This document shows, in pieces, positions 3,507 through 59,671 of a stretch of 64,000 bases of DNA. The notes beneath the pieces are model-generated. The model was given only the letters and a program-made list of their open reading frames with translations. It was not told the DNA's origin and did no database searches. The position numbers and the translations under genes were made by a program. The stretch comes from Syncephalis plumigaleata (lineage: Eukaryota > Zoopagomycota > Zoopagomycetes > Zoopagales > Piptocephalidaceae): assembly GCA_025201365.1 (NCBI GenBank), contig JAIXMF010000001.1:558001-622000 (forward strand). The letters are read 5' to 3'. Positions within the stretch are counted from its first letter, which is position 1. Each line of letters starts with the position of its first letter.

Positions 3507-3847
3507 GAAATGCTTCATGTTCGATATCAGTAACTCTTCCATGATCATTGACAATGCTGCTGATGGCTGTCAACGATGTTGATGTCATTGACATACCATT
3601 ATCCATTGCGCTGATGACATCCTATCATTGCTTACGCTATCCAACACCGATTGTAATAGTGTGGTTCTTTTTATTATACACATAATGATCTGAATATTGC
3701 CAATGAAATCAGTAGTTGATTGCTTTCCTTCATGCTTACTTGTATATCATTCACTAGTAAGTATTGCATTAAAGATGACACTCCACATAGAACATTAGCA
3801 AGATGATGATCATTCCATACAATTCAGAACAAGATGACATGTCATTA

Positions 3848-6103
3848 GATTTATTCGTATAATAATTATTACTATTCCCATTAGATGAATACATTACATG
3901 GGTCTTTTGAAATGAGTGATACCTATCTTTCCGGTGCATTCTCAAATACGTGCACGAACTCTGCAATACTTGCTTTTTATGCATAACCTTGCATTACCAT
4001 AGCCACTCTATCAACTTATCATTCAAGTCTGCTGTTTATGCTGCATTAGCGGTATTATTTGATGCAATATAATCCACTACTCGGTGGCAGACTTGTCATT
4101 AACCATCAATTGTCCTTGTAGAGTGTAGCATGCTACATTTATTTAAGTTTAAACTCAGTGACTAATCACACTAGACCTGGCCTTTCCTCGTTTCTTCGCA
4201 CTAGGCCAATCTCTCGATCGGAGATGCTCGCCTTATCGCTTAATCTAGCAAAAGTGATTGCCTGTTTAATGCTTTCCGGTTTTGCTTAAGCTCGCTATTG
4301 GCATGCGGTTCCATTAATAGAAAATCTTTTACTCACCGCATGGCATCGTCTACATGTATATGCGTCTCGTTCGTGCCATTGCTTTCTTCACCCCCACTCG
4401 CCCTCGCACACTTGCACAGTCGTACGCTCGTTCTCTTTCTCTTCTTAACACACCCTAACTAATCGACGTGCGTAGGTCGCACGTTTTCTTTCCTTATCGA
4501 CTCTCGTTACCTCTAGTCTATTACAACTATCATTATCTCTATCTATTACCTCTACTACTATTTACTATTAGTAGCATCGCTACCTTTATCCTCAAGTCTC
4601 GTTTCAATTAGTCTCGTATTAACTTCCAACAGGACTTGTCCTTTATCAAGCCAACTCTATTCCTCTCGTTCCTTTCGCTTCCTTTCATCACTATTACGGC
4701 TACAGCTGGTGCAACACTCCGTAATTGTCAACGTCTCGTGAATTCTGTCACTTGTCAACAACCCTTGAAGGGAACCACGTAATTATCTATTCGTCTCCTC
4801 TAGTGCTGGTGCATTTGCCTGTACCGGTGGCTCTGTTCTATCTGTATCTCTGTTTGTATTTTGTGACATTTTAACCTTACGGTTAACCCTGTTTTATTGC
4901 TTCAATGTAAGTGGAATATATTTGTCGGCAAATTGGCTCGTTGGAGTGGAAGCGTTGCCTGATGTGCGCGTCACAAGAACGAGGCCTCTCCCAATGCATT
5001 CTCGATGTAACCTTGAACCGGTTCAACAATGATGTAGCGGTAGCAACAATAGTCGTCAAGGAATAATGACGATACCGATTCCGAGTTGTTTACCTTTTCT
5101 CTTTCTTTCTATTTATCCGTCTCCATTTCCTCTATTTCTATCTCGATTATCGCTTCATACCTCTACTACCGCTACCATTATTTGTTGCCGAACAAACAAC
5201 AACAAAAAAATTGAATGACTAACCAGTTTGTTTTATTATTTATTACTATTTATTTATGTTTATTATTGTAGCTACTGAAGCATACGCTTACGTTCAACAT
5301 TTCTAAAGCTTGACACACACACACACACACACGCACACTTATTGTTCGTCTACATAGCTAGCGCGTAAAAAACACACACGCTTAGTTGTAGTAACAATCG
5401 TAATATCCAACCCATTTGTTGGGGGCAAGCTTTGTTTACTTTTGCTCGCTCGTATTTAATCCAAATTGTTTCTACTATCGTTCGACTAGTGTGCAAGTTA
5501 AACGGATCTGCCATCTGCTGTTTTGTTTCTTGCTACTTTAAGTGACGACTGTTTCCTGGTGGGACATATTAAAGTAGCAATATAACGGCGTTTATAAGGC
5601 GCACATTCCCTCCCACTCTCCTACTTTCTCTCTTCAGTTGTCAACGCTGATATTTGAATTGTTCATATACCAGTATTTTACTTGAATTTAATTCGACTCA
5701 CCACACGAATCCACATTATTTTTCGACTATTCGCAGTCGATAATAATTGTTTCCGTGACTGTAGTTACTCGCCAATAATCACTTGTAGCTTTATAGCAGC
5801 TATTGCTCTTACCTACCTACCTGCTTACTTTCCTATTATATCAATCTCTAGTTTCTCTTCTTCTGCTTCTTCTTCCTTTTCTGAAGAAGTTACCAATCTT
5901 TGTTTATTTCCAGTACGGTCAGTTTATATCAAGCTTTTGAAATCGTTGAAAGCTATCGATATTCCACGGCCATTTTGCTCTTCCTCTCGAATCTTTTACT
6001 TTGGATTTTTACGGATATTTTGATTAATCTCAATTTTCACGTGCGAGTAATCCATCGACCAAAGTTTCTTCCATATTTACTTGTCGTTACACATTGTTAC
6101 AAT
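3848..6103. other. Long intergenic region and 5' leader of the next gene
   Basis: About 2.2 kb without a convincing gene. It becomes very pyrimidine-rich toward 5100-5900, as do several other leaders in this window. It contains a CA microsatellite near 5309-5332 and upstream ATGs, including a 113-residue frame from 5682 that looks non-coding. I read the distal part as promoter and a long transcribed leader for the membrane protein at 6104. No tRNA-like fold was found by eye. Confidence 0.4.
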
Positions 6104-11020: not shown

Positions 11021-11251
11021 GAGGCATGACTGCAAGCTGTATACAGCATTGGCTCGTTGTACTAATGTAACAATAATAACAATAGCAGTATTTGTTCCAT
11101 ATATTAATATTGGTCATCATTAATATCTTGCTATATTATCAGTATATATCACTATTTATGTATGCATTTGTTAGTTAATTAGCTATAATCATGTTCATTA
11201 ATAAAGGTATATATAACTATTGACAGCTGTAGTATTGATGTTTATTCGAGA

Positions 11252-11695
11252 CTATTCGAGTCTAGTAAACTTCATTCGTCGTATTTCAATGTTGTTCCAT
11301 ACTCGACCCGTGACGTAGGGATCCTCGGCAAGCCAACCACGTAGCTCTGCTTCATCGTTGGCCTCGTACACTATGATAGAACCGTTCATTTTGTCGTCAT
11401 CCGTAAGAAGCGGCCCACCGAGAATTATTTGACCACGTCGTTTCATAGTTTCGGCACGGTCCAAATGGGCTTGTCGCGCATTCATACGACGATTAAGTGC
11501 TTCGTCATCCGTAAAGTCGTGAGCAATCATGAGGAACTGACGAGCCACTATATCATCAATATATGACGTATGTTTATCGAGTGAAAAGAACAACCAAGGT
11601 GCAATCTACTTACCAACTGGTGAATTCGAAAAGTATCGAGCAGATCCCACGAATAAGCGTGGAATAGTTGCAAGACGACGGTGTAATGAAAGCAT
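11252..11695 (-). CDS. YCII-domain protein with mitochondrial presequence
   Basis: Two exons (11614-11695 and 11252-11547) joined across a 66-base GT-AG intron give 125 residues. The first exon encodes a basic, Ser/Leu-rich leader (MLSLHRRLATIPRLFVGSAR) typical of mitochondrial import, so I chose the ATG at 11693-11695. The second exon is a YCII (dimeric alpha/beta barrel) domain: FLMIAHDFTD, an ARQAHLDRAETMKRRGQIIL helix, GGPLL, and SIIVYEANDEAELRGWLAED. YCII proteins are small dimeric proteins, mostly of unknown function. The domain is complete with no break. It lies immediately downstream of the Fanzor gene, on the same strand. Confidence 0.8.
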
Positions 11696-11895
11696 ATTAG
11701 TATCAAAAGAAAGAAAAAGTTTGACGATGATGACGTGGTCACTTTGCGAACATCGTGAGAAATGACAATTTAAATTCTAACAGTCACTACAGACTTTTTC
11801 CATCCAATTTGCGCAGTTAGCCTTCAGTTTTATGAATAAATAATAGTTATAATAACACTTACGTATTTTGTGGTGTGGCAGCGATAACTCCACGG

Positions 11896-14800
11896 TTAAT
11901 TTGATTTTTGTTGTTTGGACCCCCGTTGTCCTTGTCCTTCTTTCTTTGAACGCTTAGAAGGAACGGCACCTCGTTGAAATTGTGTTGGAATACGACTTCC
12001 ATTGCGAAGACTGCGAATAATTTGAATGAAGTTCAGACATGCAGCCATATCCCGATTCCACAAACGATGCTCGAATTCTTTAATTGGCTTGCCGTCTTTA
12101 TCCAGCTCGACCTCCTTGTCCTTCGTGCCCTTCGTACCCTCTTGATCCTTCTCGTCATCCACGTCCATCATATCTTCTTGATTCTTCTTGTCATCCTCGT
12201 CATCTACGTCCATCATATCCTCTTGATTCTTCTTCTTCTCCTTGTCCTTCTTAGCCTTTATATCTTTCATGGCCTCTTTACAATTTCGATGTGTGCATCT
12301 AATAAAATAATTAATTAATATATTGTAATAAATTGCAAAGTGTAATAAATTGTACTTACCTTAAGAGACCATGTCGAATAATTTTATGGCTGTCTTCATG
12401 TTTCTTGGGTCGAGGATTTGTGACCATCTTGAACGTCTCGAGCGTGGGTTTGTTGCACTCGGGACAGCACTTGCTGGTCTTATGCTCATCAATTAGAAAG
12501 ACTTTAAAATGATGTCGTCGTAAAAGTCTTCTAAAGCCAATACCACGTATGGGCTCGTGATATCTGGCGTGAGGAGCGGACCAGTTCCCCATCACAAAAA
12601 CCGCATCCTTCTTGAACTTATCAGTCAGCTCATGAATCAGCTTTTGATCACTCTGTTGCTTGCTGATGTAGGCTGACAGTTTCAACTTCCTAAAGAGAGG
12701 ATGTTGGGTAGGATGGTCGGTGGTGGTATCTCGGTAAAAGGTGGTGAGAACATCTGTGTGCTGTGCTCGACACCTCAGATAGTCCTCATATTCCGGTAGA
12801 GATACAGAGTTGCCCTTGGTTCTTGAGAGAGCCACCTCGGCCTGCTGCACCGCCAGATTCCCCTTCTTGCAGTCCTCGCGAATCTTGCGGTATTTCTTCG
12901 TCCTCCGCGTCTTGTCTTGACATGACTTTGTGTACCGATATTTGCGCTTATCTTTCACTGTCGAGTTTTCGTGTACACAAAATAGCAAATCCCTTCTTCC
13001 TGGGTCCACGGCCACGCATTTGTCTTTGAACTTCTGTTGTGCCGTAACACTTAAGTCGGTGAGATACTTGAAGGGCTTCTCTGTTGGTTTTGCTGCTGGT
13101 GACTTTGTTTCCCCTTCCTCGGTGTCCTCGTCGTCGTTCTCGTCTTCGTCATCATTCTCGTCGTCGTTCTTCTTTTCGTTCTCCTTTTTGATCTTCTTGA
13201 GGACTGTGACACCAACGCCATCGGTGTCAATCGAGCCAGAAAACTCGAGCTCACCTTCCTTTTGAGTATCGAACGGCTTCAACTCGAGCTTCACGGCATC
13301 CTTCCAATGTTCCTCCATATGATCTTTACCCTTATACGCGCATCCTAATATGTTGTGACAAAGAATAACGGTGTCGATATGGACGTAACACGGTGAGAAG
13401 GAACGGCGCAGAGGAAAGCAGTTGAAACCCTTTAAGTCGAGGTCCTTAAACAGGCGCGCAAGTTCAAGGAACGCCTTAAAGTGCTTCACCGGGCGCGCTA
13501 CACAGTCGTAATAACGGCCGTTTTTACCGAATTCATAGCCATCAGGGTAAGCACTTAAAACAGGCTCGAAAATGTTGAATGCCTCAGCAAGCTTAGGCTC
13601 TTTCTTAAATGTCGTTTTACGTACACCTTGCTCGGCTATTGCCACCTTGAATCTCCTTACTTCCTCAGTGATTTCCTTACTGATTTTGTTGCGAAGCTTA
13701 GTTTCGGTTAATTTCTTGTAGAATTGCTTCCTCATATCCTTTACCCGCTCCTTGACCTTGAAGTGCTTGTTGACGGCACGCCGAAGGAACTCGCCAAAGC
13801 GCAGCCTGACGTTGTTGGTGTAAGCAACGTACATCTTCCTTGCCTCATAAGTTGCTGATTGCTGAGCATAGAGTAACACCAGCGGTTGATAGCGAGCAAT
13901 GCGAAGGTAATCATCCAAATGGCTGTAGATGACTGCGCGAAATTCTGCTGTTGTGCCTTTGGTGTGCTGTGTTTCCCGCTGGATTAATGCAAGCCATACT
14001 TCTTTGAAAAAGCCTACACTTACAGTGAGGGAAAGAATTGTTCACGTGTTTCAATTTTTTTTACTTTTCCAATCATTACACAATTAATACACAACATATT
14101 GCTTAGTACTTTTACATGTTAATAAAGCTATTAAACCTCTATCTAATGATATAAAATATGTGCATACTTTATTATAAAATTCTTAAGATATTAGCGTTGA
14201 AAGTCACGTGGTGCACGTGAACAATTTTTTCCATGACGAAAATATTTTCTAATTTCTAACATTAATCAATTTTTATTTAATAAAAACGTGTAATAATGTA
14301 TATAAATGGTTAAATGTAAACAGCTGTGCACTTTAAGGGTAAAAAGAACTATAAAGAGGCTAACTTTATTACATAAAATGATTACATTTGTTCTTTCTAT
14401 TATTCTTCGAATATTTCATTATAAAATGGTACGTCAACTCCCCGCTGATGTGTGTATGGACATGAAAGTGCTGCTGATGAGCGATACACCCGTTGCAGTT
14501 ATTGCGAAAAGATTGGAAGTGTCTAAGGGGGTGATTTCAAAATACTCTCGCAAGTGGTTCCCGAACCGCAAGCGTAATGCAGCTGGTAGACCTGCTATTG
14601 TGTCTGATTGTACCAAGTCAGTCATCCGTAGGAAGGTACTACAGGGGGAACTACTTACCGCTGTGGATGTTCATGAAGAACTAGCGAAGATGGGATACAA
14701 ATTGTCAGTTAAAACAGCAGCAAATGTACTCAAATCAATGAACTTCCAGAGTGCTATAAAAAAGAAGAAGCCATTTTTGTCTGTAAAGCACAGGGCAGCG

Positions 14801-15902
14801 CGACTTGCCTGGGCCAAACGCCACGAGCACTGGACCATTGATGATTGGAAGAGAGTAGTGTTCTCTGACGAGACAAAAATCAATGTTTGGGGCTCAGATG
14901 GCTGTAAATTCTATTGGAGTAGACCTGGTGATGAACTTAAACCTCACCACATTGATTTTACAGTTAAGCATGGCGGTGGAAGCTTGATGATGTGGGGCTG
15001 TATGACTTACGAGGGACCAGGCTATGGATGTCAGATATACGATGGAACTATGAAATCGGAAGACTACATCTATATTCTTGGTTCAACGCTTAAAGAAACC
15101 ATGATATTCTATAATATGGATTGGAAAGAAATGTATTTTCAAGACGATAATGACCCAAAACACCGTTCTAACGCAACAAAAGCGTGGATAAAGGAGATGG
15201 AGATCGGCGTGCTGGAAGACTGGCCTGCACAGAGCCCGGATTTAAACCCAATTGAACACTTGTGGCATCATTTGAAACTCAAACTCGCTGCCTATCCTAC
15301 AAGAGCTAAAGGAGTGCATGAACTCTGGGAAAGATGCGACAAAGAGTGGACTTCTTTCACCAAGGAGGAGTGCCAACGTTATTACAACAGTATGCCAAAA
15401 AGAATTCGCGCTGTCATAGACGCAAAGGGAGGTCCAACGCGATATTAAATTTTTTATAGTGCTTGGAAAAAATTGTTCACGTGCACCACGTGACTTTCAA
15501 CGCTAATATCTTAAGAATTTTATAATAAAGTATGCACATATTTTATATCATTAGATAGAGGTTTAATAGCTTTATTAACATGTAAAAGTACTAAGCAATA
15601 TGTTGTGTATTAATTGTGTAATGATTGGAAAAGTAAAAAAAATTGAAACACGTGAACAATTCTTTCCCTCACTGTATATACTTTTCGAACCTAAAGTTTG
15701 GCTTATCAAGTTCTTTGAGTAGGATATGTTTCGCGAAGGAGTAGGCGTGGAAGGTCGTGGTGTGTACGATGTTTACGAAGTCGCGTAAAACACCACGACG
15801 CTCCTCCTTCCAACCAATGCCGGAGATAGAAGACTTCACAGCCAGAACTCGTTCACTGTTGGCAGAAGTAGACGAGCCATGAGTGCCTGGCCGTGGCATC
15901 AT
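11896..15902 (-). CDS. Fanzor (eukaryotic TnpB-like RNA-guided nuclease), interrupted by a Tc1/mariner insertion
   Basis: Minus-strand coding segments lie at about 15677-15902, 12360-14020 and 11896-12298. The last two are separated by a 61-base GT-AG intron (12299-12359). A Tc1/mariner copy separates the first two, and the frame is the same on both sides of its TA target; counted without the insert the length is about 763 residues. Motifs in order: a basic helical N-terminal half; RuvC-I CVAVDPGRRDLLFCV; a GNWS element; RuvC-II VFLIDEHKTSK; a zinc ribbon (CCPEC, then CTHRNC, whose second half lies in the last exon); and RuvC-III LWNRDMAACLN. The Asp, Glu and Asp expected for catalysis are present. 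Two acidic blocks are inserted, one before RuvC-I and one between the ribbon and RuvC-III. The family is known for guide-RNA-directed DNA cleavage and for spreading with transposons; activity here is inferred and would be lost or reduced by the insertion. Confidence 0.9.
14023..14232. repeat. Left 210-bp terminal inverted repeat of the Tc1/mariner element
   Basis: Identical by eye to the reverse complement of 15465-15674. It holds an outer motif TTGTTCACGTG (near 14039) and an inner copy in opposite orientation, CACGTGAACAA (near 14215). These are candidates for two transposase-binding sites per end. Confidence 0.95.
14426..15448 (+). CDS. Tc1/mariner transposase
   Basis: 340 residues, one exon, starting at the ATG at 14426 (MVRQLPADVCMDMK). 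An open extension upstream to 14306 lacks family similarity. The N-terminal half holds the paired helix-turn-helix DNA-binding region (VAVIAKRLEVSKGVISKYSR, then a GRPA-like linker). The catalytic half shows VFSDETKINVW (first Asp), FQDDNDPKH (second Asp) and SPDLNPIEHLWHHLK (Glu). I count 35 residues between the second Asp and the Glu because of an added residue in EDWP, so this is DD35E by my count rather than the common DD34E. No stop or frame break is present, so it may be functional. Confidence 0.95.
   Translation: MVRQLPADVCMDMKVLLMSDTPVAVIAKRLEVSKGVISKYSRKWFPNRKRNAAGRPAIVSDCTKSVIRRKVLQGELLTAVDVHEELAKMGYKLSVKTAANVLKSMNFQSAIKKKKPFLSVKHRAARLAWAKRHEHWTIDDWKRVVFSDETKINVWGSDGCKFYWSRPGDELKPHHIDFTVKHGGGSLMMWGCMTYEGPGYGCQIYDGTMKSEDYIYILGSTLKETMIFYNMDWKEMYFQDDNDPKHRSNATKAWIKEMEIGVLEDWPAQSPDLNPIEHLWHHLKLKLAAYPTRAKGVHELWERCDKEWTSFTKEECQRYYNSMPKRIRAVIDAKGGPTRY
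15465..15674. repeat. Right 210-bp terminal inverted repeat of the Tc1/mariner element
   Basis: Reverse complement of 14023-14232 with no mismatch that I could find. The inner boundary is at GGAAAAAATTG (15465). It starts 16 bases after the transposase stop codon. Confidence 0.95.
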
Positions 15903-17951
15903 GGATGAAATGGAATAGTATTCAATATAATAGTAGTATGTTAAAACGAGCACAGTTACAATATGAAGGACTAAATAATTTTTTATTTTATTGTAGTATA
16001 GACGCTTCTTTATATACGTGGCGTGTTGGTAGTACTAACTGCGCGGATCTGATGACGTAGGGGTGAAACGCTCGTGCAGACACATACAGGAAGGGTGAAT
16101 CTATTATGGTAAGTAGTATCATTTACAGCGCAACACAGTAAGACTCGTATCATCTAGTGTCATTGTAGCAATGGTATAACGCCGATGATAATTTAGCAAT
16201 CGGTAAGCATTAATAATCTTGTTAACACTTTATTAATGAAAGATTCGTTATTAATAAATGAATAGAGTCTTGTAAGGGATGTTAATATATTCATCTGCAT
16301 TCTACTAATGCCTCCATTAGCAACTTCTCCTTATCTATTTGTTAACACTACTAACTGTTGTTAATGGTCTATCAATTCATTTCCAAGTATCCATCTCATC
16401 GTTGCTTCTCTTTCCCCTTTCCCTTTACTTCGTTACCTACACTATTTCCTCCTCCTTTACTTCGTTACCAATGATAATATATTTCCATTCCTCATTATCG
16501 ACTGATGTATAAATTGTTAATTTTCTTTATTAATCAATAAAATCATTCTTTCTCTCTCTCTCTTTACTATTGCTGTGTTCTTCGTGCTAATCTCTTTTTT
16601 CTTGTCATTCTATAACACGCGTCTTCTTTGTGTCAACTACATTCCACTTGTCAGTAAACAACACACGTCCACTTCCTCTTCTCTATATGCTAAGTATTCC
16701 TTTTCCTTTCTCAGTAATACGCGTCTTCTTCGTGTCATTCACATTCCACTTACTTCCTCTTCCACTTTAGCATACACATTCCCAATAACAGCTATTCTGC
16801 CATACTATCTCTATGACTTTTATTTATCTTTGTTTTCCTCTTGCTCTAACCTATCTACATGCTCACCTGTCGTTATTATTACTATACCAATAAGCCTTGT
16901 TTATTGTTTGTTCTAGTCCTTTGTTTTCTATCACTGCCCTGCTTATTTATCAATGTTTAAGCATTTACTGCTCTCGTTGTAATATGTACCTTTTACTTTA
17001 CCACTCTTTTCCGTCATCTGTTTGTATGCCACCATTACGTCATGCTTTTATTTGTATTTTCATTTGTTTACTGCCATCTACATACTCTATCTACCTACAA
17101 GCATATGCTACTTCTTCAAATAAACTGGCATACGTGTTCATGCACCCTTCCTCGCTCATTCCTTGCTTCTTCGTGACAAGTCAGTCATTCTACTAGTTAC
17201 TGCTTGTTTATTACATTGTTTATCATATATTCACTTTGTTCACTCGTTGCTACTCCTATGCAATCAATCGTAAGCATTATCATAATGATTTATCTACCAT
17301 TCTAGTTTATTACTACTTGTAAGTACATGACATGGCAATATTCAACTATACTAGTACACTTGTATCGTATACCTTATAGAATTGATGATGATAGTTATCG
17401 CTATCAATAAATGATCCATTACTAAACATGGATTGTTATTATTATTATACTGTATCAATTGGCATTTCTATGGTGCTAATGGTGTTAACAATTGTGTTAA
17501 TCTATCTATTAATAAACAGCAAATGTTAAAGGATAAATGCGCAAAATGGATGGAAAAACACTGTATGGCTACGAAATATTGCATTCGTGTATAGGTCCTT
17601 ACTTCAGTATGCTTTGTCATTGATCATAGAGTCAGTGCATCCTTGCCAAAAGCAAAGATAGACTAGCTGGAGCGACAACCAATATAGCTATATTTATGCT
17701 AAATAATCGCTTTGTGTGTCTTTATAATCGTATCTTTGTCATGCCATGTCTACAAATAGAAAACAAGTATTTCTACCTGCCATTCTGCTTGTTACAATAG
17801 CCGTAATGATTGTTTGATGCACCCATGCTTGTTATTCAACAATCGTGTACATGTCGTCTTTGTTTCCAGTATTTGCGAATTAGCCATGGCATACACTTAA
17901 CAATCTTATAAAGCGAATTATGTATCAGCGACAATTACTCGGATAGCCTTC
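15903..17951. other. Intergenic, about 2 kb, between the Fanzor gene and paralog 2
   Basis: Pyrimidine-rich on the plus strand between about 16380 and 17200, like other leaders here. Two short, Phe/Ser/Leu-rich frames (from 16575 and 16897) look like composition artefacts. An imperfect direct repeat with the core ACGCGTCTTCTT and following CATTCCACTT occurs near 16617-16650 and 16720-16750. A 10-base inverted match to the far side of the Fanzor gene lies at 16035-16044. No recognised gene. Confidence 0.4.
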
Positions 17952-20276: not shown

Positions 20277-21902
20277 CTATAACGCGCCATATTCTTGTAT
20301 AATTCGCTTGTTATTCTCCAAGAGATTGCTTATCGTACCCACCATCGCATAGGTTTCTATGTGCATCTCTGGATTTGGAATATCGAGTTCGCGTATCACC
20401 TCTTTCGTATTGATATCAACGAGATACCATGATCGTACGGAACTTTCTTTTGCAGTTATCAAATAGAGATCGCCTATGACATTTATGCCTAGCATTGCAC
20501 CGGGTATTTGTAATATTTGGTCGTCGTTATAGTCCGCATCGGTCCACACGTTCACGGGTAATCCTCCGAGCATTAAATAATTGAAGCCAGCGCGTAACAG
20601 CGGTGCTGGCAAATATCTATCAAATATAGGAATACAGTTTCTTGGAGTACTGCCCTGGCCGCCTGATGCTACACTATGAATTACATGCGAGGAATGGCCA
20701 AACTGGCTGTACAGCTCGATTATCATTTGTGAGTCGCACGATTTATAAACAAGGATCAATGTTGTCGTTTGAATTTCCGGTAACTGGAACCAACCGCTTC
20801 GCAATCGCTTAACGGACTTGTTGTTCGAGAATCGGTATAACGCCCATTCAATACGATCCGTGTCCTCTTTGACTAGCCTTGCCGTATATACTATTGCCGC
20901 TCTCTCTGTTGTTTTGTAAAAGCATACCACGTGCCACACTTCGTTAAGCTCGCCTGGACACATAACCTCATTGTCTATATCGAACATCATTAAGCTGTCT
21001 AGATTCATTAATAATCAGTATTAGTTCTATTAGGCATATATATATATAAAATACTCTTTGCCCTTACTTGTTTGGAAAACTTTCGAACCATTTATTACAT
21101 CTACCGATCTCATCTCCAATAATATCCAATTCCCCTCGACTGCTTTCAACCTTTGCGACCTCGGAATACTAAACATGTTTAGCACGTTGCCGTATTGTCG
21201 GGAGAGTATCGTTATATTGAGGTCGGCATTACTATCGATCGCGCCATGGCATGTAACTATATATTGATCACCCGGAATAAAATAGCAAAGCTCGCCGTTA
21301 TCGCTATCCAAGAATATCATGTTAGACGAAGTGGATAGCGAACTATTCTGCACGATATCGTCAGCTTGTCCGAGATTTGAATGCGCAGATAGCTCTAGGC
21401 CGTAATAATGACGCGATGTAGTGGTGTCGGCATACTGAGTTTGTTGCGTTGCAAGAATAAATATACTATGCTTGCCAGACTCTGTATTGCAAATTGATTC
21501 GCTCTTTTCGAATTCCATATCGATATGCGTGGTGTTGCATCGTCCAAATCGCCAATTATTCTCGGTGCTCACTCGTCGACGATATACGTTGTACCAGTCT
21601 ACCTTCGCTAGTAGATCGGCTCTTTTCTCTGATGTACACGGATTGTTGACATCCGTGCGTATACACCACAATACGAAATCCATTTCTTTAGCGTAATAGG
21701 TTCCCGATAGGAAATCCCTCTGGTATAATTTTTGCCATAATTCTGGGTCATCTCGTATACTGCTTCTTAACGAGCGACAACATACTGATAAACGCACTAA
21801 TTCTCTATAACTAAATAAATTACGAAAGTGACGCTGGTAATCACGTGGAAAGCTATTAAGACAATCCAGTAATTTACAAGATGAGTTGGAATTGCTAAAC
21901 AT
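20277..21902 (-). CDS. F-box protein, tandem paralog A
   Basis: Two exons (21068-21902 and 20277-20998; intron 69 bases) join in frame to 518 residues. The N-terminus carries an F-box: LLDCLNSFPRDY, then LFSYRELVRLSVCCRSLR and DPELWQKLYQRDF. F-box proteins usually link substrates to an SCF ubiquitin ligase through Skp1. The remaining 420 residues hold short beta-rich, Asp/Ser-spaced segments (FIPGDQYIV, AVEGNWILLEM) that could form a propeller-like substrate domain, but no repeat family is recognised. The neighbour at 22229 is a clear paralog in the same orientation with the intron at the same place. Confidence 0.8.
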
Positions 21903-22228
21903 TTGGGCAGCAGTAATAACGGAATAGAATAAAAGTAATAAGGCCGCTTATTTTATTCGTAGCGTGCTGGATAATCCTTGAAAGAGTTCAGATAACAGGT
22001 TCCAATTATCCAAATGTAATGATGAACGTTGTACACGTGCTACCGAGCTACATCCTCTATGCATTGAGAAGCATTCATCAGTTTGTACAGCTTGATGTCT
22101 CAATTGCTATTATAATTGATTTATTCGATTAATCATCCAGTTCATAGAACGTATTAGCATGTCCTATGGTTTAATGATGTATAAACATTACTCTTATTAG
22201 CTAGTATAGTATGATTTATTGATGCTTG
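21903..22228. other. Intergenic between the F-box paralogs
   Basis: About 325 bases of AT-rich DNA, presumably the promoter of paralog A and the 3' end of paralog B. Nothing else seen. Confidence 0.4.
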
Positions 22229-56649: not shown

Positions 56650-57881
56650 GCAGCGCTCTTTGATAACTACATACAGATACATACACATACGTATACATGT
56701 TTAACGACATATTTACAGTTACTATATGGCAATAAAATCATTCATTAATTGTCATTTCATTTGTATTTCTTGACCAATTGTGTTTATCTGTCATGATCAT
56801 TACAGGATGTGACGTGATTTTTTGTCATTTTAATGAATAGCCTATGATTCTATGATTCTATAGTGCTTGTTTACTTCACTACACATGTTCCACCTACTTC
56901 TCTTGCATTCTAATATGACGTCAGTAGTAGTAATAATAGTAGAAGTAAACTAGTTGACTTTATGACATTGAACAGTAATGATCATTGGGATTGTTACCAT
57001 TCGTACAACCAGTCAACACATGCATACAACATGAATAATGCTAACATTAGTTTAATTTGTTAATAAAGAGTACGATTTAGGAATGCCAATCGCACTTTTA
57101 CTACCGAATAGACTGTATCTACAGGACCAGTCCTGTCGATTCATGTGACTATTTCACCTATGCTTATCGTCGTACGATTGTACATTTTGCCAACGACAGA
57201 TTATATTAATATATCGAATGTCTCTCTCTCTTTCTTTCTCTCGCGCGCGCTCTTTCGTTATTGGCGGCTTTCATCGAAATATGGTTCGGTAAAATCAGTA
57301 GTAGGTGGTACCCCAGTTGTTATGGTGCACTTTTGCATTCACATCGATGATGTGTTAATTCCCTCAATGACATCAATTATTTTTTTAGTGTACACCGCTC
57401 ATCTTGATGTACGATGCAACTACTGAAATAGAGTGCATCAAGTATACTCTTGTAATAATACTAAACAAATGTGATACAAACGTGTAAATGCTACCAGGTC
57501 ACTTGATGCGCACTAGTTGGCCTAGTCCTTCCAACCAACTATTCGATTGTTTGCGACAACAAGCGCGACAATGCTGATTCATCTTCCTAGCCTGTTAGAA
57601 GTTGTATGAATAATAGTATAGAACAGGCTGTATTGAACTATACGGAAATCATTATTCTTTTCTTCGTCAACCTCTCATTTACACAGAAATAACGAACCAC
57701 CTCATATCATTGTCATTTTTCCATCGTGTCATCATTGTATCTAACGTGTTTATTCTTCTCACGAACTTAGCAAACAACACCTTATAAGTTTGAATATTCA
57801 TCATCCTTATTCTACTGCAAGCTTATTCCTCGATTACTCTAGTGTTATCATTTTATTTGACGGATTTGCATTTAGTTTGAC
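56650..57881. other. Intergenic, 1.2 kb
   Basis: It contains a CT/CG-rich patch (57222-57252). A plus-strand frame at 57145-57426 has no recognisable features and overlaps that patch. No supported gene. Confidence 0.4.
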
Positions 57882-59671
57882 ATGAAAATAAATCAATTGA
57901 CTTATCATAGTGCTATCCTAATAGCACTACTATTACATTGCCATGTCGTATCGGTGATTGCAGCTGCCGTGAAATCCAACACCATCAATCTCGATTCGAT
58001 ATCACAACTGGTACGCGAACGTATCGATCATGTAGTACTGATGGTGCTGGAGAATCGTTCTTTCGATCATGTTTTAGGAAAGTTGAACACGGTCAACTCG
58101 GAGGTAGATGGGCTCACCGGGAAAGAGCGTAACTACTGGAATGTAGCGGATGAATCCAAAGGATACCAGTCTGTCGTGACCGATTCACGTTATTGGCGTG
58201 CACCGATAGATCCCGAGCATGAGCTCCCAGGTGTCACGGAGCAGATATTCGGCACGAAAGCCGAGCCTAGCACGTATCCTGAGGTGGCGCCCATGAATGG
58301 ATTTGCGCAGAACTCCCTCAGTGTCGTGACCAAGGGCGACAACATCACGGAACGTCGTCAGTACAGCATGTCCACCTGGCCGTTGGGATCGTTGCAGGCC
58401 ACGCATACGCTCGCCCAGGAATTTGGCGTATTTGATCGCTGGTTCTCCGCTGTTCCCGGACCTACCATGCCGAATAGGCAGTACATCTACTCGGCAACCA
58501 GTCATGGTCATACGGCGAACAATGTGGGTGACATCCTCCTCGGCTATCCCCAGGCTACCGTGTACGACTCGTTGAACAAGAAGGATATCGATTGGCGCAT
58601 TTATTTCCATGATGTGCCCACGTCGTTGATCATGCGTGAACTACGTTCGCCGAAGAATCTATTGAAGCTTCGTTTGATTAATCGTTTCTATCAGCATGCT
58701 CGAGAAGGTCGACTACCGCCTTTTTCCTTGATAGAACCAAGGTACAGCGACACAAGCCTATTCCCGGCCAATGATAATCATCCACCGGTAAGTAGACAAT
58801 TTATGAGCAATACATGGCGTCGACACAATTGTGTAATGCTAATGCTCAATCGTAGCACGATTCTCGTTATAGCGAGAAATTGATCAAGGATGTATACGAA
58901 GCATTACGCGCGTCACCTAACTGGAACAAGACACTTCTTATTCTAACGTACGACGAGCATGGCGGTTACTACGATCACGTACCAACTCCATTGACCGGTG
59001 TTCCATCGCCTGATGGTATTGTTGGCAATGCCGGTGAACGAGGAGAGGGTTTTCGTTTCGATCGTTTAGGTATTCGAGTACCAACGTAAGTTACCATCAT
59101 TATCATTATATTTATTCATTTACTAATGATTGATTATTGCATGACATGCTAGTATCCTCATATCACCATGGATTAGTCGTGGCAGTGGTAAGTGCAATTG
59201 CCTGTTATGCCTGTCTTGCTGCTATACCCGCTAACAATTCCTATGCAAATAGTATTCCATGAACCAGCTGGACCACAAGCGGCGTCGCAATTTGAACACT
59301 CGTCGATTCCCGGATTCCTTAAGCGTCATTTCAAATTGGACAACTACCTTACAAAACGCGATGAATGGGCGGGTGCCATTGAACCGGCACTCGTGCAACT
59401 CAAGTCGCCACGTATGGATTGTCCATTAAAGTTGCCCGATATACCTTTGCCGCAATTCTGGCAACCATCCTCGCCACTTGGTGGTCAAGGCGATGGTGAT
59501 GATGCTGATACTGCCGGAACATCCGATATCTCAATAATAGGGGAGATAAAAGACAATGAGGATGAAACTACGGGATACTTCACGAGTGAGGCAAGGACAC
59601 TGGACAGCGTCATTGGCTCAATAGTCAGACAAGTTCGAAAGCGTGACCATTCCGGTGAAGCAGGTCTCTAA
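57882..59671 (+). CDS. Secreted phospholipase C-type phosphoesterase
   Basis: Four exons (57882-58787, 58856-59085, 59153-59187, 59253-59671) join to 529 residues. One exon is only 35 bases. A signal peptide ([18 protein letters not shown]) indicates secretion. Family marks of the bacterial/fungal phosphatidylcholine phospholipase C and acid phosphatase group (phosphoesterase, PF04185-like): the metal motif [62 protein letters not shown] and [15 protein letters not shown]. The C-terminus adds an acidic, Gly/Asp-rich extension. It probably hydrolyses phospholipid head groups or other phosphoesters outside the cell. No break seen. Confidence 0.88.

Follow-up and report, generated by a model that had tools for sequence, protein, structure and literature searches.

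A TA-flanked Fanzor1 element of Syncephalis plumigaleata, split by a young Tc1/mariner insertion and facing a probable empty allele

Several eukaryotic transposons carry Fanzor1, an RNA-guided nuclease, and the role of Fanzor nucleases for their transposons in nature is an open question. The locus described here, from the fungus Syncephalis plumigaleata (Zoopagomycota), lies in a stretch of 64,000 nucleotides (the window), positions 558001-622000 of contig C1 in an assembly of 32.6 Mb and 383 contigs. It consists of a Fanzor1 element flanked by TA and bounded by terminal inverted repeats (TIRs), the nuclease gene of which is interrupted by a Tc1/mariner element. The Fanzor1-only elements described by Bao and Jurka 2013 (PMC3627910) likewise have TA duplications, mariner-like TIRs and no transposase of their own, for example PUl-4. 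The fungi in the part of its Table 1 used here are Spizellomyces, Rhizopus, Allomyces, Phycomyces, Mucor and some yeasts; in contrast to the present locus, the parts compared contain neither an allelic empty site nor a nested mariner, nor Syncephalis.

The SpuFz1 system of Spizellomyces (Saito 2023, PMC10432273) resembles the present one in its many copies, its ghosts with the same termini and a right end conserved over about 75 nt. Insertions of further transposons in or near those loci are also known, where they are of the Gypsy/Ty3 type, whereas a DNA transposon is found here. The target-adjacent motif (TAM, CATA) and the guide RNA (omegaRNA) of SpuFz1 were shown experimentally; here both are predicted, and both empty sites are visible. 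The nearest solved relative is PpFz1 from Parasitella (PDB 9cf0, TAM ATN; PMC11423790). The guide RNAs (reRNAs) of SfAV and other Fanzor1 systems (PMC10711439) have the TIR and the target duplication predicted within the RNA scaffold of non-autonomous Fanzor1 elements, as is proposed here; their expression was measured, whereas the present scaffold is predicted from the letters of the DNA. In a diploid alga, a Fanzor repeat is the most abundant repeat, and insertions of other transposons differ between the haplotypes (PMC12633428). Among the matches listed in a search of titles and abstract beginnings in the open-licence PMC literature, no paper dealt with a Syncephalis Fanzor or with an empty Fanzor site in allelic position. 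Fanzor genes in TA/TIR elements, ghosts and nested insertions are thus already known, and the new locus is an unusually legible member of this group.

The nested locus and its two empty sites

By homology the interrupted protein is a Fanzor1. With E values of 8e-91 against PpFz1 and 2.8e-31 against SpuFz1 (8gkh), the match of the main Fanzor piece is not due to chance; GtFz1 gave only 0.018. The alignment skips about 105 residues of PpFz1 where the window protein has 4, and the skipped part appears to include the extra FRI domain of PpFz1, which would be absent here. The Pfam-A and NCBIfam scans returned no curated model above its cut-off; Cas12f1-like_TNB had 14 bits against 26.3, and NCBIfam gave no match. 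Most database relatives carry the precomputed annotation PF26935, which the Pfam-A scans of the window did not report. The gene runs on the minus strand from 15902 to 11896. Its 5' coding piece extends from the ATG at 15902 to 15675 (228 nt), the frame picks up at 14020, and an open frame of 561 aa (12356-14041) is probably joined to a second coding stretch by a 61-nt GT-AG intron. With catalytic residues assigned from PMC10432273 and the alignment to PpFz1, the RuvC D, the alternative E, the last D and the zinc ribbon all have their motifs in the window pieces.

The insert has the TA duplication, TIRs and DDE transposase of a Tc1/mariner element. Its two arms (14021-14233 and 15464-15676, 213 nt each with the TA) are 100% complementary, and its transposase has the domains HTH_Tnp_Tc3_2 (E 7.5e-11) and DDE_3 (E 6.1e-11). 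Four full copies, on C1 (the window's), on C316 and twice on C112, are 100% identical over 1656 nt; each has TA at both ends, and their flanks all differ (20 nt compared per side). Because the arms and the sister copies are identical, the insertion must be very young. A fifth copy on C318 is also 100% identical in its aligned parts. About 190 nt of inserted sequence interrupt it (1308-1500 of the extracted locus L013), and its two aligned parts overlap slightly there. Among the best 120 of 6933 relatives of the transposase, the top-scoring named one is from Rhizopus delemar (62% identity) and the best unnamed one is 74% identical. In the Tc1-like elements of R. delemar, the transposase is likewise 340 aa long and has both of these Pfam domains.

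An earlier note, made from the DNA letters alone, had described a TnpB-like gene on the minus strand that seemed to have been intact until a recent mariner insertion. This gene and insertion stood up to analysis. The motifs AVDPGRRDLLF, LIDEHKTS and WNRDMAACLN and the zinc ribbon (CCPEC) are present, and homology places the protein in Fanzor1 even with profile scores below cut-off. The mariner in the N-terminal coding region is complete, with an open transposase and TA on both sides; both flanks lie in one frame, and neither a stop nor a frameshift was seen elsewhere in the coding pieces. The note had overlooked the enclosing TA/TIR transposon (11790-17563) and its empty site.

Homology between the Fanzor copies ends near window positions 11788 and 17566. 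The element ends there are TA-flanked TIRs beginning with CAG, which are altered in some copies. Read inwards, the left TIR is CAGTGTTTTTCCATCCATTTTGCGCA and the right TIR is CAGACTTTTTCCATCCAATTTGCGCA; the termini on the two sides are unlike (CAGTG on the left, mostly CAGRC on the right). With its TA duplications and TIRs, the element is a eukaryotic transposon of the Tc1/mariner type, other than IS607. The listed frames of its 5' module are at most 131 aa, the remainder being Fanzor or the nested mariner; no transposase of its own was found in the element, which is therefore non-autonomous. The genome contains 950 matches to the TIR core with at most two mismatches (477 + 473), and the reversed pattern has none (0 + 0).

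Both outer flanks of the element are also found, adjoining, on contig C85 (26,688 bp), with 99% identity over 2.5 and 2.9 kb. C85 joins window 11041-11789 (749 nt, 99.5%) to 17564-17917 (354 nt, 99.4%) through a single TA, and no excision footprint was seen at this junction. Most simply, C85 would be the other haplotype, without the whole Fanzor element. In a single-cell sequencing study, three of four Zoopagomycota were not haploid (PMC6784888), and haplotigs in the present assembly fit this report. Two further pairs of Fanzor copies are haplotig-like. Copies W and Z have the element in both, and about 2 kb of each flank is shared at 99.4% and 99.0% identity; copies O and T have the left flank in common (97.8%), but not the right one, and T has no recognised right end.

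The locus structure is certain at the level of the sequence and well beyond chance, and a two-step nested insertion very probably accounts for it. A non-autonomous TA-flanked Fanzor1 element of the Tc1/mariner type would have landed upstream of a YCII gene in one haplotype, the other keeping the empty TA. An unrelated, recently amplified Tc1 element would then have entered a TA within the Fanzor coding sequence and disabled the copy. The Fanzor element probably moves in trans, through a family of Tc1-type transposases in this genome whose termini are related to its own. The nuclease, with an open frame in many other copies, probably works with a right-end RNA for which the adjacent host DNA is the guide. 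Its cut would fall in the empty site, beside an (A)TA motif, and repair would copy the element back or across. The features are listed in Table 1.

Table 1. Features of the Fanzor locus and its neighbour gene in the window
Feature	Position	Strand	Basis
Host neighbour gene, YCII domain	11252..11695	-	profile match, E 5.9e-14
TA target duplication, 3' (right) end of Fanzor element; single TA in C85	11788..11789	.	copy ends, empty allele
Conserved 74-nt right end including TA, candidate omegaRNA scaffold; guide would be the host flank below 11788	11788..11861	-	conservation across Fanzor copies and ghosts
Fanzor element body, about 4.1 kb minus the nested insert	11790..17563	-	homology limits of copies, ends and TA, empty allele
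Fanzor exon 2, RuvC-III (WNRDMAACLN) and stop	11896..12298	-	frame, motifs
Putative 61-nt GT-AG intron in zinc-ribbon region	12299..12359	-	predicted from sequence
Main part of Fanzor exon 1, coding for RuvC-I, RuvC-II and the first half of the zinc ribbon	12360..14020	-	frame, homology, motifs
Mariner TA target duplication, 3' side	14021..14022	.	arm comparison
Nested Tc1/mariner element, 1652 bp, identical 211-nt TIRs	14023..15674	+	arm comparison, genome copies
Tc1 transposase, 340 aa, open	14426..15448	+	Pfam match; start chosen by relatives' length (340 aa)
Mariner TA target duplication, 5' side	15675..15676	.	arm comparison
Fanzor coding, N-terminal piece, 76 codons, ahead of mariner	15675..15902	-	frame reading, copy comparison
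5' non-coding module	15903..17563	-	on average about 92% identical among 24 copies, whatever the nuclease clade
TA target duplication, 5' (left) end of Fanzor element	17564..17565	.	copy ends, empty allele

Sister copies, ghosts and relatives

A nucleotide search of the genome, in which 40 of 505 candidates were scored, returned at least 102 pieces matching Fanzor. Together with the window's copy, 26 other near full-length copies make up a set of 27. The mariner site could be placed in 21 of these 26 (all but G, M, P, U and X), every one of which has exactly 2 nt at the site. The five closest copies (89-96% identical) have the bare TA, and the other 16 have TT or TC. These copies answer the question of the earlier note whether uninterrupted copies exist in this species. 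Of the 26, 19 have a first exon with an open frame of 600 aa or more. The six clade comparisons (171 pairs) all gave dN/dS values (nonsynonymous over synonymous substitution rates) of 0.36-0.47, so the nucleases have been under purifying selection. Among the 19 open frames, the RuvC-I D is kept in all and the RuvC-II E in 18. The RuvC-III motif, for which alone exon 2 was checked, is found in 26 of the 27 copies and missing from S. The RuvC-II of the window's copy has the spelling of another clade (DEHKTS); its open clade-mates B, C, D and F have DEYMTS. In copy M (L040, C1:1615k) the RuvC-II reads LIDKYMTS, with the expected catalytic glutamate lost and the frame otherwise open.

In a comparison of 24 copies (all but the window's pieces, D and AA), the divergence of the 5' module (element positions 60-1680) is 8.1, 8.4 and 7.8% inside the three nuclease clades and 8.2-8.7% from clade to clade. 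For the nuclease part, the corresponding values are 7.5, 6.6 and 12.5% within clades and 23.7-24.7% between clades. The break lies near codons 31-40, and the N-terminal coding region before it is intermediate (2.8-7.4% within, 8.8-12.2% between). In Mantel tests, the halves of the nuclease part agree (r 0.72) and the halves of the 5' module hardly do (r 0.20, p 0.06); the correlation of the 5' module with the nuclease part is weak but above zero (r 0.30, p 0.001). Recombination between Fanzor copies is the simplest reading of a 5' module common to the clades. The copies of the W/Z and O/T pairs differ in patches, and for one O/T patch the closest copies are M/P in one of the alleles and S/R in its partner. 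In such pairs with flanks in common (L042/L047 and L050/L053, haplotigs or duplications), internal patches resemble other Fanzor copies. Such patchy pairs suggest ectopic gene conversion.

Eight TIR-bounded loci were picked by spacing from 100 listed motif places, and all eight have both ends without an intact Fanzor gene (ghosts). L058 (about 0.5 kb) has a left end of 253 bp and a right end of 289 bp; L059 (about 0.6 kb) has a left end of 253 bp and two right-end pieces (190 and 62 bp); and L060 (about 0.2 kb) keeps 172 and 63 bp. The longer L055, L056, L057 and L062 (about 1.0-1.2 kb) consist of a left end of 83-92 bp, degenerate 3' coding sequence and the right end. The ghost L061 contains a large insert with a 1163-aa frame that, by eye, is reverse transcriptase-like.

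Syncephalis species are parasites of other fungi, known on Mucoromycota, and are called "ubiquitous mycoparasites" in the title of one reference. After scoring of 7998 candidates, 32 protein relatives of the window Fanzor were listed: 11 from its own species, 18 from named Mucoromycota and three unnamed. Among the matches listed, the named relatives belong to Mucor, Rhizopus, Bifiguratus, Umbelopsis and Cokeromyces and are 32-52% identical; we take these genera to be Mucoromycota, the group that Syncephalis parasitises. In a midpoint-rooted tree of 22 sequences (eight of the 19 open copies and 14 of the 32 matches), the Syncephalis proteins form one clade beside Bifiguratus. A transfer of Fanzor between Syncephalis and Mucoromycota is a fair hypothesis and would be compatible with this tree.

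Candidate mobiliser, flank asymmetry and rival explanations

The genome has 31 Tc1-type DDE_3 matches, which fall into several families. The 3' terminus of a family with a 383-aa transposase (C90) is identical to the left end of the window's Fanzor element at 37 of 48 positions and to the right end at 32 of 48; with the shared TACAG left out, none of 2000 shuffles reached either score. The related and mostly degenerate C35 family also has similar termini (score reached by none of 2000 shuffles with the left end and by one of 2000 with the right end). Two controls gave no similarity: scores as high were reached by 1009 (left) and 835 (right) of 2000 shuffles for the nested mariner ends, and by 118 and 771 of 2000 for the C42 family. 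No such end was found in a 701-nt stretch beside C1:1859478. A search for DDE_1 (pogo-type) transposases had no match, and its control searches were equally silent. It is likely, if not proven, that the 383-aa Tc1-type family moved the Fanzor element in trans. Judged by their ends, the comparison shows the nested mariner to be no kin of this putative mobiliser.

The flanks were compared in the Fanzor copies, the ghosts, four 10-kb stretches and 40 short stretches, and ends beyond the terminus pattern were dropped. Read from outside, an A precedes the TA in 32 of 48 distinct left flanks and in 10 of 42 distinct right flanks (Fisher p 5.6e-5). When the flanks are split by hand, the bias is found in the Fanzor copies (13/18 left against 3/13 right, p 0.011) and in the ghosts and short-spaced ends (19/30 against 7/29, p 0.0038, including L097, with its interior unseen). 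Such an asymmetry points away from a symmetric choice of target by a transposase, and is expected if an RNA-guided nuclease reads the left flank as its target motif. The left-flank ATA bias would echo the ATN motif of PpFz1. A transposase with unequal ends that chooses its orientation is also a possible source of the asymmetry.

The latter possibility is part of a wider alternative, in which Fanzor is a passenger, the transposase alone spreads the elements, and the A bias is an orientation preference on two unequal TIRs. We give it a substantial chance, somewhat short of even. It agrees with the unlike termini and with a number of terminal motifs that appears far larger than that of the Fanzor copies. 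The flank bias is shared by the ghosts and short-spaced ends, no clear fold signal is seen at the right end, and the bias was counted in Fanzor and ghost elements alone. Purifying selection and the kept catalytic residues, however, speak against a passenger; the bias agrees with the motif of the nearest solved relative, and the ghosts, with their right end retained, could be acted on in trans. Several results also weigh against the explanation preferred here, that is, a nested insertion with an RNA-guided nuclease at work. Guide RNA, cutting and homing are all steps that we infer. The consensus fold of the right end (alifold, -2.59) is not clearly better than column shuffles (mean -1.50, sd 1.60), 38 of 200 of which were as low; the test had 26 rows, comprising 19 Fanzor copies and seven ghosts, with the ghost L060 and eight copies without a recognised right end omitted. 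A search for the 5' end of the C90 element was without success, and only one end of the putative mobiliser is known. The haplotype reading of C85 is taken from assembly contigs only. Moreover, C85 has the predicted target of the window's copy intact, with the left flank ending in CCATA directly followed by the right flank. Homing has thus not happened here, because the locus is heterozygous though the other allele carries the predicted target.

C85 might also have arisen by precise loss of the element from a filled site. Tc1-type elements do excise, and repair from the homologue can restore the site; however, C85 has exactly one TA and no footprint, and a site that was never filled needs no extra event, which makes such a loss improbable. 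The earlier note had further asked whether the cut site was used by one mobile system against another, for which we find no support: the target is an ordinary TA, found only in this copy's clade among the placed copies. That the mariner hits Fanzor genes above chance, as an antagonism between mobile systems, seems very unlikely. A related fold-back element does lie in the intron of a second copy (L054), which makes two of 27 copies; but two are too few, insertions into repeats are simply tolerated, and the four full mariner copies sit in different 20-nt flanks. A bolder extension of the nested-insertion reading would see one genome-wide homing network in the Fanzor copies and those hundreds of further elements that share their ends, which we consider possible but doubtful. 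The right end of each element would carry its own guide, and sister Fanzor proteins would act in trans. The left ATA bias would then be the footprint of insertions that the nuclease could protect or spread, and the mosaic 5' modules, like the patchwork of differences between alleles, would result from rounds of repair on sister copies.

The fold-back element of L054 (positions 3741-5374; C318:706k) is 1.63 kb long and TA-flanked. Its arms of about 770 nt are 98.7-99.0% complementary, and its ends are related to those of the nested mariner.

Genomic setting and meaning

The Fanzor element lies about 93 bp upstream of the likely ATG (read by eye) of the YCII gene. Contamination of the contig by a host fungus was ruled out by the relatives of a phosphoesterase frame (phospholipase C family, 57876-58883) in the window: its best named relatives include proteins of S. 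plumigaleata (100%) and S. fuscata (73%/52%) and, further down, of Piptocephalis (43%). The minus-strand frames at 20277-23890 form two tandem pairs (305 aa and about 245 aa each) that look like a local gene duplication. The Rfam and tRNA scans of the window had no match.

The value of the locus lies in a readable series of states within one genome, together with the flank asymmetry. Besides the element itself, the same genome holds an empty site of it, nucleases both open and broken, a candidate mobiliser and hundreds of terminal-motif matches. Because all these states coexist, the idea that the nuclease cuts the empty site and the element is copied back can be tested directly. If the homing network were real, nature would have set up a heterozygous test at this locus, in which a nuclease-dead copy faces an intact target allele.

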